Of a DNA stretch of 51,561 nt, positions 566-51,561 are shown piece by piece. Source of the DNA: a virus. A program made the translations under genes and the position numbers. The notes under the pieces are model-generated. The model searched no databases, had not been told where the DNA came from, and worked only from the letters and a program-made list of their open reading frames with translations. How positions within the stretch are numbered: position 1 is the stretch's first letter; each line of letters opens with the position of its first letter. The stretch covers positions 1 to 51,561 of IMG/VR virus record IMGVR_UViG_3300028558_000035. The stretch is one strand, 5' to 3'.

Positions 566-751
566 GTCAGAATCGCACCCCGGCTTTACCCGGGACTCGC
601 CCCGGTTGCGGCCCGGTTTGTCAGAATCACCGGTAGTAAAATCAATGGGTTGATGCAGGTTCGAATCCTGCTGCCCCGACCAAAATTCCCTAGTCATTTC
701 AAGCTCCGATTCTGACCTAAAGGCCGGTGATTCTGACCGGCGGTTCTGACC
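566..751. repeat. Predicted integrase arm-type binding sites flanking attP core
   Basis: The 9-mer GTCAGAATC occurs at 566-574 and 620-628. Its reverse complement GATTCTGAC occurs at 708-716 and 729-737, and a one-mismatch version GGTTCTGAC occurs at 742-750. The inner pair extends to a perfect 14-bp inverted repeat, GTCAGAATCACCGG at 620-633 against CCGGTGATTCTGAC at 724-737, placed nearly symmetrically around the tRNA-like core. Repeats in opposite orientation on the two sides of a core are typical of arm sites of tyrosine integrases. The repeats are seen directly; binding by the integrase is inferred. Confidence 0.65.
655..682 (+). other. attP core: 3' end of a tRNA gene (T-arm, acceptor strand, CCA)
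   Basis: The segment reads as a tRNA 3' end: T-stem GCAGG (655-659), T-loop TTCGAAT (660-666), T-stem CCTGC (667-671), acceptor strand TGCCCCG (672-678), discriminator A and CCA (680-682). No D-arm or anticodon arm precedes it, so it is not a complete tRNA gene. It lies just beyond the 3' end of the integrase gene, the classic place for attP, and would restore the host tRNA after integration. The implied C1-G72 pair with A73 fits tRNA-Pro, but the anticodon is absent, so the identity is a guess. Confidence 0.85.
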
Positions 752-1019
752 TCGTTCTCGCCGGCGCCAGGGCGCGCTCCCTGAGGAGCTTGGCGAGCGT
801 GGCGCGGCGGGCGATCCGCAGCGGCGGTCCGGTGTGCACGGCCTCGAAGATGAGGTCGGTGCCGGTGGTGTCGAAAAAATTGACCGCGCCGTAGAACTCA
901 AAGCCATTGCGTTCCAAGGCGCGCCGGAACTCGGCATCGGTCCAGTCGCGGCGCGCTCCACGGGGCTCTTCGACCGTCCGGAGGACACCGGGCAGGGCAA
1001 GCTGGCGCTTCCTAGCCAT
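717..1019 (-). CDS. Small protein downstream of integrase, 100 aa
   Basis: The chosen start is the ATG at 1019 (MARKRQLALPGVLRTVEEPR), which overlaps the integrase stop by 8 nt; a second in-frame ATG lies at 1031. The middle reads FEFYGAVNFFDTTGTDLIFE, a compact alpha/beta-looking stretch. The last codons coincide with the right-hand arm repeats of attP, so the C-terminal RSEPPVRITGL may be shaped by those sites. I do not recognise the family. The overlap and direction suggest co-transcription with the integrase. Confidence 0.6.
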   Translation of the reverse strand: MARKRQLALPGVLRTVEEPRGARRDWTDAEFRRALERNGFEFYGAVNFFDTTGTDLIFEAVHTGPPLRIARRATLAKLLRERALAPARTRSEPPVRITGL

Positions 1020-2370
1020 TGGCCCCTCCATCGATCGCGCGCTTGCGCCGGCGGGCGTGCGCTACGCTGGCGATCGCCTGCTCAGTCGCCTTGATGTAGC
1101 GGCCGGTGGTGCGCTCGTTGGTGTGCGTGAGCGCAGCCGAGACGAGCTTGCGGTCGACGCCGGCTTCCTCGGCCTCTGTGGCGCCGCCGGCGCGGCTGTC
1201 CATCAGCCAGACCTCGTCGGGGATGTTCGCGATGCGGGCGATCTGCCGGAACCATTTCCGGTAGCTGCGCTCCTGGATCGGCAGGCCGTGTTCGCCCTTC
1301 ACGATGGCGCCGTGGCGCTCCTCGTGCGGCACGAGCTCGAGCAGCGGGAAGAGCAGGTCGTAGTTCGTTAGCGTGAACACCGCCGCCTGGCGGTACTTCG
1401 ATTTTGACGTGCGGGTGCGCCATCGCCAGCCCGGGATATTCTCCCAGGTATAGGTGCCGGCCCACGGCCGATCGCCGCCATCGAGGACAGTCGCGCCGTT
1501 GCGCCTCGCCTTCTCGAGATCCGCGGCGTTCTTCGGCCGCTCGCCGATGGTGTCCCTCTGGCGCAGCGTCGTCTCGAACTGAGTGGCGACGCCGATCGCC
1601 ATGTAGAGGCCGCGCAGGCCTGGCAGTATGCCGCGCGCCTGCAGATCGAGCGCAGTGCGGATGAAGTCGCGTGTCTGCGCGTAGGTCAGCTCTTGGTTGC
1701 GCGCGCCGCCCTTCTCGAAATTGGTGAGGCTGGTCGCCTTCTCGAGGTCCTCGATCAGCTGCTTGCAGTCTGCCCGGCGCAGCGCCGCGTTGAACCGCAG
1801 CACGGTCTTGACCATGGCGACCGCGTCGTGGGCGCGCTTGATGCGCTCGGGCCCGACCGTTTCGTTGCCCTGCTCGTCGACGTACACCACGGGCTTGCGC
1901 CATTCCTCGTACCAGTGCTGCACGTCGAGGATCGTGAGATTGCGGATAAGGCGCTTGCCGACCGTGGGGCGGATCACCTTCAGGCTGTCGAGGTAGGTCT
2001 TGCGCGTGTTGCCTTTGACGGTACGGAAGCGCGAGCGTGGATGGAGCTCATACCAGTCGCAGGCCGAGTCGATCGTGCCGGTGTAGGGCGGCAGCGCCGG
2101 CAGCGCCTCGGCGTCGTCCTGCTGCCCAGCCTTCGCCTGTGCGTCGAGCCAGGCGTTGAGACGCGCGGTGTGCCGCCGGCAGAGCTCAGCGAGCTCTTCC
2201 TCGCTCGCCTCGGGGGGCAAAGGGATGCACGGATCCGGAAACAGGTCCTTGATCTCGCGGTACTGATCCGCCGGCAAGATCTGACTCGCCATCCAATAGG
2301 GCAGCCGCCGGCCGAGCTCGGGCCGGAAGCGGCCGCCTTTGAGGCCTGGGGTTTTGCCGCGCGGGGGCAT
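1012..2370 (-). CDS. int: Tyrosine-type phage integrase, 452 aa
   Basis: This gene should catalyse integration of the phage at a host tRNA gene. The N-terminal part has the FPDPCIPLPPEAS and CRRHTARLNAWL stretch, followed by a core-binding helical region around residues 95-215. Candidate catalytic residues are R270 (QFETTLRQRD), a lysine near K323-K325 (RTSKSKYR), R393 in MDSRAGG, H416 (THTNERTTG) and Y425 (GRYI). The usual HxxR box is replaced by D-S-R, a variant I believe is common in Rhizobiales phage integrases. The predicted attP lies just past its 3' end. The ATG at 2370 was chosen; the N-terminus overlaps the upstream gene by 185 nt, so a later start (2292) remains possible. Confidence 0.9.
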   Translation of the reverse strand: MPPRGKTPGLKGGRFRPELGRRLPYWMASQILPADQYREIKDLFPDPCIPLPPEASEEELAELCRRHTARLNAWLDAQAKAGQQDDAEALPALPPYTGTIDSACDWYELHPRSRFRTVKGNTRKTYLDSLKVIRPTVGKRLIRNLTILDVQHWYEEWRKPVVYVDEQGNETVGPERIKRAHDAVAMVKTVLRFNAALRRADCKQLIEDLEKATSLTNFEKGGARNQELTYAQTRDFIRTALDLQARGILPGLRGLYMAIGVATQFETTLRQRDTIGERPKNAADLEKARRNGATVLDGGDRPWAGTYTWENIPGWRWRTRTSKSKYRQAAVFTLTNYDLLFPLLELVPHEERHGAIVKGEHGLPIQERSYRKWFRQIARIANIPDEVWLMDSRAGGATEAEEAGVDRKLVSAALTHTNERTTGRYIKATEQAIASVAHARRRKRAIDGGANG

Positions 2371-2668
2371 TGAAGTCTTCCGGTCCGTCCTCCTGGACGG
2401 GTTCGGGTGCTGGTCCGGCAGCATTGCGGGCAACCCCTTCGTGATGGTCAAGCCAGGCTTTGACCTTCTCCCAGTTTCGGCCCTTCCAGAGGGCGCTTTC
2501 CCTGGGGAAAGTCGGATCACGCTCGCACTCACGCAACGCGGCACGGAAGCTCTCCCACCCCATGTGCGGGGCGATTCGCAGATGCAGCTGTCGCTCGGTG
2601 ACGTAGAGGCCATTGGCCTGCGCCTCCTTGCGGGCCTCGCGGGCGTCAGCTGCAGCGGCGTCTGTCAT
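2186..2668 (-). CDS. Putative winged-helix protein upstream of integrase, 160 aa
   Basis: The ATG at 2668 sits in an ATGA overlap with the stop of the ACP-like gene. The first 90 residues look genuine: YVTERQLHLRIAPHMGWESF followed by LWKGRNWEKVKAWLDHHEG, a pattern of a small helix-turn-helix or excisionase-like protein. The last 60 residues are arginine and proline rich and overlap the integrase N-terminus in another frame. The true protein may therefore end earlier through a frameshift, or the overlap may be real. Being directly upstream of int suggests a recombination-directionality or regulatory role, but this is inference. Confidence 0.5.
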   Translation of the reverse strand: MTDAAAADAREARKEAQANGLYVTERQLHLRIAPHMGWESFRAALRECERDPTFPRESALWKGRNWEKVKAWLDHHEGVARNAAGPAPEPVQEDGPEDFNAPARQNPRPQRRPLPARARPAAALLDGESDLAGGSVPRDQGPVSGSVHPFAPRGERGRAR

Positions 2669-2919
2669 GCGGCATCCCGCGAAAGGTCGCGCAGGATCCC
2701 GACGATGTCGTCGATCGTCTTGAAGCCGCCGGCGAACTCGTCGTCGCGCAGGTCGATGCCGAAGCGCTCCTCGATCGCCATGCCGATCTCGAGGACGTCG
2801 AGCGCATCGCCGCCGAGATCCTGGACGATGTCCGCGCCAGGCCGGCAGTCCTCGATCGCGCGATTGAGTTGCCGGGCCACGATCGCGGTTACCGCGTCGC
2901 GCAAGTTCTGCTTTTCCAT
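2665..2919 (-). CDS. Acyl-carrier-protein-like protein lacking the phosphopantetheine serine, 84 aa
   Basis: The 84 residues match the four-helix acyl carrier protein pattern in length and order: an acidic first helix, then DLGGDALDVLEIGMAIEERF, then GIDLRDDEF and FKTIDDIVGILRDL. In ordinary ACPs the second helix opens with D-S-L, where serine carries the phosphopantetheine arm. Here the codon is GCG, giving D38-A39-L40, so the protein should be unable to carry an acyl group. It is ATGA-coupled to both neighbours in the leftward operon. Possible roles include a structural partner or a decoy of host ACP-binding enzymes; these are guesses. The family resemblance is strong by eye. Confidence 0.75.
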   Translation of the reverse strand: MEKQNLRDAVTAIVARQLNRAIEDCRPGADIVQDLGGDALDVLEIGMAIEERFGIDLRDDEFAGGFKTIDDIVGILRDLSRDAA

Positions 2920-3164
2920 CACGCGGCCTCTCGGTCGATCCGGGTTTCGCCGCAACGGACACAACGCGCGGTGATCGTATCGATGTAAAGAAAGCTGTGC
3001 GCGCACAGCAGCGCCGGCCCGGTTTCCTCCTCGTAATTGAAATCGCCGTCCGCGCACGCGCTGCAGAGTGGCGGATCGAGCGAGGCCCAGCTGCAGGGGC
3101 CGTTCTCGGTCATGCAAGCGCGATCGTCGGTGCAGCCGCAGCCTTCGCAAATGAGCATCGTCAT
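2919..3164 (-). CDS. Cysteine-rich, probably zinc-binding protein, 81 aa
   Basis: Ten cysteines fall within 81 residues: C6, C9, C11, C17, C24, C34, C37, C54, C68 and C71. They are arranged as CEGCGCTDDRAC, PLCSAC and CVRC, so one or two zinc ribbons or knuckles are likely. The N-terminal half, with DDRAC and GPCSWA, looks like a motif seen in small phage proteins. The gene overlaps both neighbours by ATGA and is expressed with the ACP-like gene. A nucleic-acid or protein-binding role is plausible; no function is known to me. Confidence 0.65.
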   Translation of the reverse strand: MTMLICEGCGCTDDRACMTENGPCSWASLDPPLCSACADGDFNYEEETGPALLCAHSFLYIDTITARCVRCGETRIDREAA

Positions 3165-12408: not shown

Positions 12409-13332
12409 ATGGGCGAGCTCGTTGATCCGCTCGCCTCGGTCCGGGCCTATCTGTCGGCCGAGAAATCCGACAACACGCGGCGGGCCTACGCGAGCGACTT
12501 CGCCCACTATACCGCCTGGTGTGATGCTCACGATCTCCGGGCAATGCCCGGCGATCCGGTTTCCGTTGCAAGGTATATAGCCGAGCTCGCCGACTGCGGG
12601 CTGAAGGCCTCCTCGATAGAGCGGCGCTGCGCCGCCATCCGCTACGCCCACAAGGCGGCCGGCCACGAACCGCCGACCGGCGCCGAGGGCGTCAAGGCGG
12701 TGCTGCGTGGGATCCGCCGGTCGAAGGGCGTCAAGCCGACGCGCAAGGCGCCGGCCGACGCCGCGGCGATCGGCGCCATGCTCGAGCAGCTACCGGCGAC
12801 ACTCGCCGGGATCCGCGATCGCGCGCTGCTGCTGATCGGATTGTCGGCCGCGCTGAGGCGGTCGGAGCTTGTTGACTTAAAAGTCAACGACGTCGAGCGC
12901 CGCGGCGCCGGCGTCATCCTCCACATCCGTAGATCGAAGACGGACCAGGAGGGCAGGGGTCACCGGATCCCGGTGCCGGCCGGCCGCAAGCTCAGGCCGG
13001 TCGCCGCGCTCGAGGCCTGGCTCGAAGCCGCCTGCATTACGCAGGGGCCTATCTTTCGTGAGATCGATCGCCACGGCCACGTCGGCCAGGCGGCGCTGTC
13101 GGGGCGGTCGGTTGCGCGCATCGTCAAGCGCGCAGCGCGCGCAGCGGGGCTGGATGAGGCGATCTTCTCCGGTCACTCGCTGCGCGCCGGTTTCGTGACG
13201 CAGGCCCTGGCCGATGGAGTCGACACATTAAAGGCGATGAAGATCACGCGTCACGCGGATCCGCGCTCCCTGGCGATCTACGATCGCCGCGAAGCCGAGC
13301 TCGAGGACCACGCGGGAAAGGGCTTTCTGTGA
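12409..13332 (+). CDS. Second tyrosine recombinase (XerD-like), 307 aa
   Basis: The N-terminal SAM-like core-binding domain spans residues 9-105 (NTRRAYASDFAHYTAWCDAH). The catalytic domain shows all expected residues: R150 (ALRRSEL), K177 (SKTDQEG), H256-S-L-R259, H282 and Y291 (LAIYDRR). The open frame extends upstream to 12292 through the inverted-repeat array, but the ATG at 12409 fits the domain start better. Unlike the first integrase it lies in the rightward early block, away from attP. It might resolve multimers, act at a second site or drive inversion; no invertible segment was evident. Confidence 0.85.
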   Translation: MGELVDPLASVRAYLSAEKSDNTRRAYASDFAHYTAWCDAHDLRAMPGDPVSVARYIAELADCGLKASSIERRCAAIRYAHKAAGHEPPTGAEGVKAVLRGIRRSKGVKPTRKAPADAAAIGAMLEQLPATLAGIRDRALLLIGLSAALRRSELVDLKVNDVERRGAGVILHIRRSKTDQEGRGHRIPVPAGRKLRPVAALEAWLEAACITQGPIFREIDRHGHVGQAALSGRSVARIVKRAARAAGLDEAIFSGHSLRAGFVTQALADGVDTLKAMKITRHADPRSLAIYDRREAELEDHAGKGFL

Positions 13333-50998: not shown

Positions 50999-51499
50999 TC
51001 AATCGGCCACGACGCGTTCTTCGGCGCCGGCGCTCTCGATCTGCCGACCGATGAGATAATTGCCCGGCGGCACGCGGATGCTGTCGTGCTCCTGGTGTGC
51101 GATCGTCATCGTGCCGCCCTCGACGACGAGACAGCCCACGACAAGATCGGTGCGCATCAGAAGCCCGCGGTTCTGCATCTGAGCCGCGACGTTCGGATCG
51201 CGATAGAGCCGCGCGTGGCCGATGGCGACCTTGGCGCCGCCCAGCTTCTTGCGCAGCGAGGTGTCACGCACATGCAACACCGGATCGACCTGCACTTCAG
51301 TCTTCCTGAAGCGTCGATCGCGCGGCAACGTGATGTGGTGGTGATGGCCGGTCAGCTCGCCTTCCTGCAGGATGAGCTTGTTGTCGACCGGCCGGATTTC
51401 GTCGGTGGTCGACACCTTGATGCCGGCAGGAATCGGGATGATCGAAACATCGCCTTGGAACGCCTGACCCTTCGTGGGATCGAAATCATGAACGCGCAT
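50999..51499 (-). CDS. Partner protein of the DUF6745-like gene, GHHHH motif, 166 aa
   Basis: ATG at 51499 follows a GAGGAGACCGACA ribosome-binding site. Beta-rich sequence throughout: GDVSIIPIPAGIKVSTTDEI, ILQEGELTGHHHHITLPRDR, TMTIAHQEHDSIRVPPGNYL and IGRQIESAGAE. The histidine cluster (GHHHH) and H-Q-E-H could bind metal; the fold looks cupin-like. I recall this protein type beside DUF6745 genes. Function unknown. Confidence 0.65.
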   Translation of the reverse strand: MRVHDFDPTKGQAFQGDVSIIPIPAGIKVSTTDEIRPVDNKLILQEGELTGHHHHITLPRDRRFRKTEVQVDPVLHVRDTSLRKKLGGAKVAIGHARLYRDPNVAAQMQNRGLLMRTDLVVGCLVVEGGTMTIAHQEHDSIRVPPGNYLIGRQIESAGAEERVVAD

Positions 51500-51523: not shown

Positions 51524-51561
51524 GGGGGGGGGGGGGGGGTAAAATAGCCTTAAACCAACCA
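51524..51561. other. G16 tract and AT-rich end at right contig edge
   Basis: Sixteen G residues (51524-51539) are followed by a 22-base AT-rich tail that has no counterpart in the rest of the GC-rich genome. Together with the G10 tract at base 1 this looks like a sequencing or assembly artefact at the ends, possibly including non-phage sequence. The 24 bases between the last ATG and the tract hold only the ribosome-binding site. Confidence 0.55.

Follow-up and report, generated by a model that had tools for sequence, protein, structure and literature searches.

An acyl carrier protein-like gene with alanine in place of the carrier serine in the integrase operon of a temperate phage

The window, meaning the whole 51,561-nucleotide stretch of DNA analysed here, is the record of a 51.6-kb virus with terminase, head, tail, integrase and repressor genes, and the phage is temperate. 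On the minus strand, at 2665..2919, lies a gene whose 84-residue product (MEKQNLRDAVTAIVARQLNRAIEDCRPGADIVQDLGGDALDVLEIGMAIEERFGIDLRDDEFAGGFKTIDDIVGILRDLSRDAA) resembles an acyl carrier protein (ACP) and contains the signature DLGGDALDVLE. The gene belongs to a leftward operon and is translationally coupled on both sides: its ATG is overlapped (TGATG) by the TGA of a small Cys-rich, zinc-ribbon-like gene upstream (2919..3164, minus strand), which has homologues in the close relative G016 and in the L036 phage, and its stop codon is overlapped (ATGA) by the ATG of a small downstream gene (2186..2668, minus strand), read from the sequence as a putative HTH or excisionase-like gene. The 3' end of the latter overlaps the integrase gene, and a gene of this type likewise lies upstream of the integrase in L036, L040 and L041. 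The tyrosine integrase (1012..2424, minus strand; start possibly at about 2371), identified by a profile match (phrog_1) and by its homologues L035-L041, is the last gene of the operon and stands near a probable attP core at 647..680, a tRNA 3'-end-like sequence (GGTTCGAATCC...) that was recognized by eye and is kept in G016; no complete tRNA was found there by ARAGORN. Elsewhere in the window, a second tyrosine recombinase (12409-13332; phrog_1, 7e-27) is conserved in G016 and G008. A poly-G tract (51524-51539 and 1-10) lies where the two ends of the circularly permuted genome meet; gene 50999-51499 (minus strand) lies approximately 25 bases downstream of it. G016 has an 11-G tract at the same place, and the tract may represent a phase-variable promoter element.

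The ACP-like open reading frame is no chance reading frame, as demonstrated by its profile, family and structure matches, its fold model and its genome-like codon-position GC content (72/38/87%, compared with 67/49/86% for the called genes of the window). The product passes the Pfam PP-binding profile PF00550 (3.8e-12; 46.7 bits, cut-off 20.8), matches the phrog_5934 acyl carrier protein profile over residues 2-79 of 84 (1e-12) and matches ACPs in the PDB by sequence (2.8e-12). The NCBIfam ACP match, at 9.7e-16, nevertheless falls under the curated cut-off, with 57.4 of the 71 bits needed for NF002148 and 54.4 of 70.45 for TIGR00517. An AlphaFold model built from an alignment of 55 ACP-like sequences (pLDDT 87.7) predicts a clear four-helix ACP fold in which helix II begins at residue 39, and its top Foldseek matches in the PDB are solved ACPs (TM about 0.8, rmsd about 1.1), several of them solved in complex with FabZ, FabG, AcpS or the ISD11 desulfurase. 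The helix layout and signature of an ACP, which the original prediction had recognized, are thus borne out by PF00550 and by structure prediction.

Residue-by-residue alignment places Ala39, encoded by the GCG codon at 2803..2805 (minus strand), at the phosphopantetheine site, opposite Ser36 of E. coli ACP, exactly the replacement that had been proposed; apart from S80, in the C-terminal tail, the protein contains no serine. Without the acceptor serine, an ACP cannot receive 4'-phosphopantetheine; the carrier role that had been denied to this protein is accordingly excluded by established ACP chemistry, and modification by AcpS is predicted to be impossible because the serine is missing. The acidic helix II, the surface that binds AcpS and other partners, is largely retained in the alignment, in which D38, D41, E44, M47, A48, E50, E51 and D59 correspond to D35, D38, E41, M44, A45, E47, E48 and D56 of E. 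coli ACP, residues that we take to be those contacting AcpS and other enzymes in ACP complexes. Some ACP contacts are changed, given the substitutions Gly46 (V43 in E. coli ACP), Arg52 (E49) and Arg58 (P55). It is very improbable that the true gene encodes Ser39 and that the alanine reflects a one-base sequencing or assembly error: the region derives from a single metagenomic record, and the part read of a near-identical contig, G017, stops short of it, but one-base assembly errors are rare and the genome agrees with another contig at 99.995% over 20 kb.

The position of the gene on the integrase side of the operon hints that it was gained, as an accessory gene, together with that cassette. 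G016 has most of its genome in common with the window, mostly at about 70-95% protein identity and including the gene upstream of the ACP-like gene; from that gene to attP, it instead carries another integrase together with a small Zn protein, and no ACP. The integrase cassette is exchanged as a whole (window 680-2990 versus G016 1-2298), the two genomes being otherwise colinear and the attP core being retained. Since G016 is colinear with the window and has a different integrase without the ACP, the ACP-like gene is probably an accessory gene that came with the integrase cassette.

Searches for homologues yielded no relative of the ACP-like protein in single-protein scans of viral and genome contigs, no orthologue among the phage neighbours found through the integrase, and no match among 18 capsid relatives (0/18). 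One integrase relative, L041, contains a diverged ACP-like open reading frame (Pfam E 0.035, with GDSEHPR where DSL stands) that folds as an ACP in single-sequence prediction (1/5 models good); as it occupies a different place in the operon, it was not counted as an orthologue. The nearest viral ACPs, approximately 40% identical, mostly have serine at the carrier site, and the branch of the window protein in a tree of 115 ACPs is long (0.92 changes per column). These observations, namely a single copy with empty orthologue searches, a long branch, serine in most of the nearest relatives and absence from G016, together with the single base that separates TCG from GCG, would fit a functionless passenger, a host ACP that was picked up together with the integrase cassette, lately lost its serine and is now decaying. 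Such decay is considered unlikely, since the reading frame, its overlaps and its codon composition are intact, the rest of helix II is conserved, and strong purifying selection acts on serine-less ACPs of other phages, as described below.

Loss of the carrier serine was surveyed with a search pattern in which the carrier residue was left free. The viral scan gave at least 115 ACP-like matches, and among the matches listed the residue is serine in 107/115 and another residue (Glu, Asp, Pro or Leu) in 8/115. The same pattern, run on 299 Pseudomonadota genomes, gave at least about 150 matches, which were read by eye; in the roughly 150 listed, the codon encodes serine in all but one Methylobacterium locus, whose gene is also present in a viral contig. 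The Methylobacterium genome was the centre of the Pseudomonadota search and the source from which that group was drawn; without it, a residue other than serine is commoner among the viral than among the Pseudomonadota matches listed (Fisher p about 0.001), the rates being approximate. Scans with the alanine form identified four distinct viral cases (L010, equal to L014; L020; L027; and L030). Across about 85,000 species genomes, this form gave just six loci that score as ACPs, the Methylobacterium locus among them; the majority of the stretches matching the alanine pattern are not ACPs. Separately, a Verrucomicrobiaceae MAG (L182:5448-5498) has alanine at the carrier site of an otherwise canonical ACP, for which an error or a second copy is possible. 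The window protein combines a non-serine carrier site with retained acidic helix II residues, as do serine-less phage ACPs, with the helix columns of the search pattern being retained by construction among its matches. The tree of 115 ACPs places serine loss at 14 changes, of which the starred branches force only 2, its resolution being too poor for a count of independent losses.

Two phage families show that the serine-less state persists. The first comprises Ackermannviridae-type phages, in which 269 records contain the protein; the carrier site is Glu or Asp in 11/11 sampled sequences (L219-L228 and L201), which span Agtrevirus, Kuttervirus, Limestonevirus and Taipeivirus, and a vWA gene adjoins the ACP in annotated members. 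Judged by this residue, the annotation of the Ackermannviridae protein as an acyl carrier protein appears misleading. The second is a marine-phage family (L275-L290) whose members are at least 85% identical to the query and whose carrier residue, over 16 loci, is Pro in 11, Ala in 2 and Ser in 3, so that 13/16 are serine-less. The serine-less members have a pN/pS of 0.087 and are under strong purifying selection. Single-base flips among Pro, Ala and Ser occur at the carrier site of this family, while the rest of the protein is nearly constant. Additionally, L027 (Ala) and L150 (Leu) form a pair in which both ACPs lie near a MazG-like gene. On another viral contig (L115:8119-8397), an Asp-bearing ACP lies between methyltransferase-like and radical-SAM-like genes, these names, like MazG-like, being given from sequence. 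The serine-less families are unlike one another in both carrier residue and gene context, and may not all serve one function.

The genomic settings of several phage ACPs also bear on the suggestion that the ACP fold now serves as a small acidic adaptor or structural module, binding a phage protein, for example in assembly or regulation, and unconnected to host lipid enzymes. In LIMEstone1, the vWA protein beside the Ackermannviridae ACP is annotated as a confirmed structural protein; the ACP of a marine family lies beside structural-looking genes; the P-HM2 ACP lies near gp5; and CsCl-purified virions yielded a single spectrum assigned to the Sajous1 ACP (PMC10892097), although this spectrum may be contamination, which is the authors' own view of low counts (PMC10892097). 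For the window gene this role seems rather unlikely, because the gene lies in an integrase and lysogeny operon away from virion genes and its product retains the ACP-enzyme contact residues in helix II.

The best reading, held tentatively and at a little below an even chance, is that the window protein is a non-carrier ACP mimic that acts by protein binding, as a competitor or an adaptor. It rests on the retained helix II residues and on the cyanobacterial ACP Ser39Ala, an obligate apo-ACP whose over-expression suppressed growth (PMC4736557). With alanine for the acceptor serine, the window protein would be permanently apo-like; it may offer its acidic helix II surface to one or more ACP-recognising proteins, for which host AcpS, glycerol-phosphate acyltransferases, lipid A acyltransferases and SpoT are candidates, and would thereby compete with or replace host ACP. 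The growth suppression agrees with Keating et al. 1995, as cited in PMC4736557, in which glycerol-3-phosphate acyltransferase is inhibited by apo-ACP. Not all ACP partners would be bound by an apo-like protein, given that ACP binding to IscS in a two-hybrid assay was lost on a Ser-to-Thr change (PMC13343975). The suggestion in the original prediction of a structural partner, an adaptor or a competitor for ACP-binding enzymes therefore stands in part: serine-less phage families under purifying selection and the growth-suppressing Ser-to-Ala apo-ACP favour it, whereas the altered helix II contacts, G016 without the gene and the finding of no close orthologue that keeps Ala39 count against a mimic. 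The operon reveals no partner for the ACP-like protein.

Phage ACPs are already known and have been treated as metabolic genes (PMC8224337, PMC5463345), and their classification as auxiliary metabolic genes presupposes acyl-chain carriage; in the open-access literature, no paper on phage ACPs without the carrier serine was found. Recurrent and selected serine loss would mean that a part of the phage ACP class, including the well-known Ackermannviridae, does something else, and serine-less ACPs suggest a simple phage route onto host lipid and stress pathways through binding alone. It is conceivable, albeit doubtful at present, that unrelated phages repeatedly strip the serine from the ACPs they capture, and that the resulting dominant-negative or adaptor mimics act through ACP-binding enzymes to redirect lipid synthesis or stress signalling in the host, with the window gene being a temperate phage's version.

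Compared with known systems, the window protein shares its size, four-helix fold, DLGxDxLDxxE motif and acidic helix II with the bacterial type II ACP (AcpP; PF00550), but has Ala39 where AcpP has Ser36 and carries substitutions in helix II and the loop after it, at the positions of V43, E49 and P55. Like the phage ACPs of phrog_5934 and phrog_4154, it is a stand-alone small ACP in a phage, whereas viral ACPs mostly keep the serine (the 107/115 among the matches listed). The ACP of the Ackermannviridae (SKML-39, Ag3, Maynard, LIMEstone1 and relatives) likewise has its carrier serine replaced, although it is about 105 residues long, lies beside a vWA gene, has Glu or Asp rather than Ala, and is only distant kin. 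The laboratory S39A ACP of S. elongatus (PMC4736557) carries the same Ser-to-Ala change at the same site, and differs from the window protein in being engineered, over-expressed and of non-phage origin.
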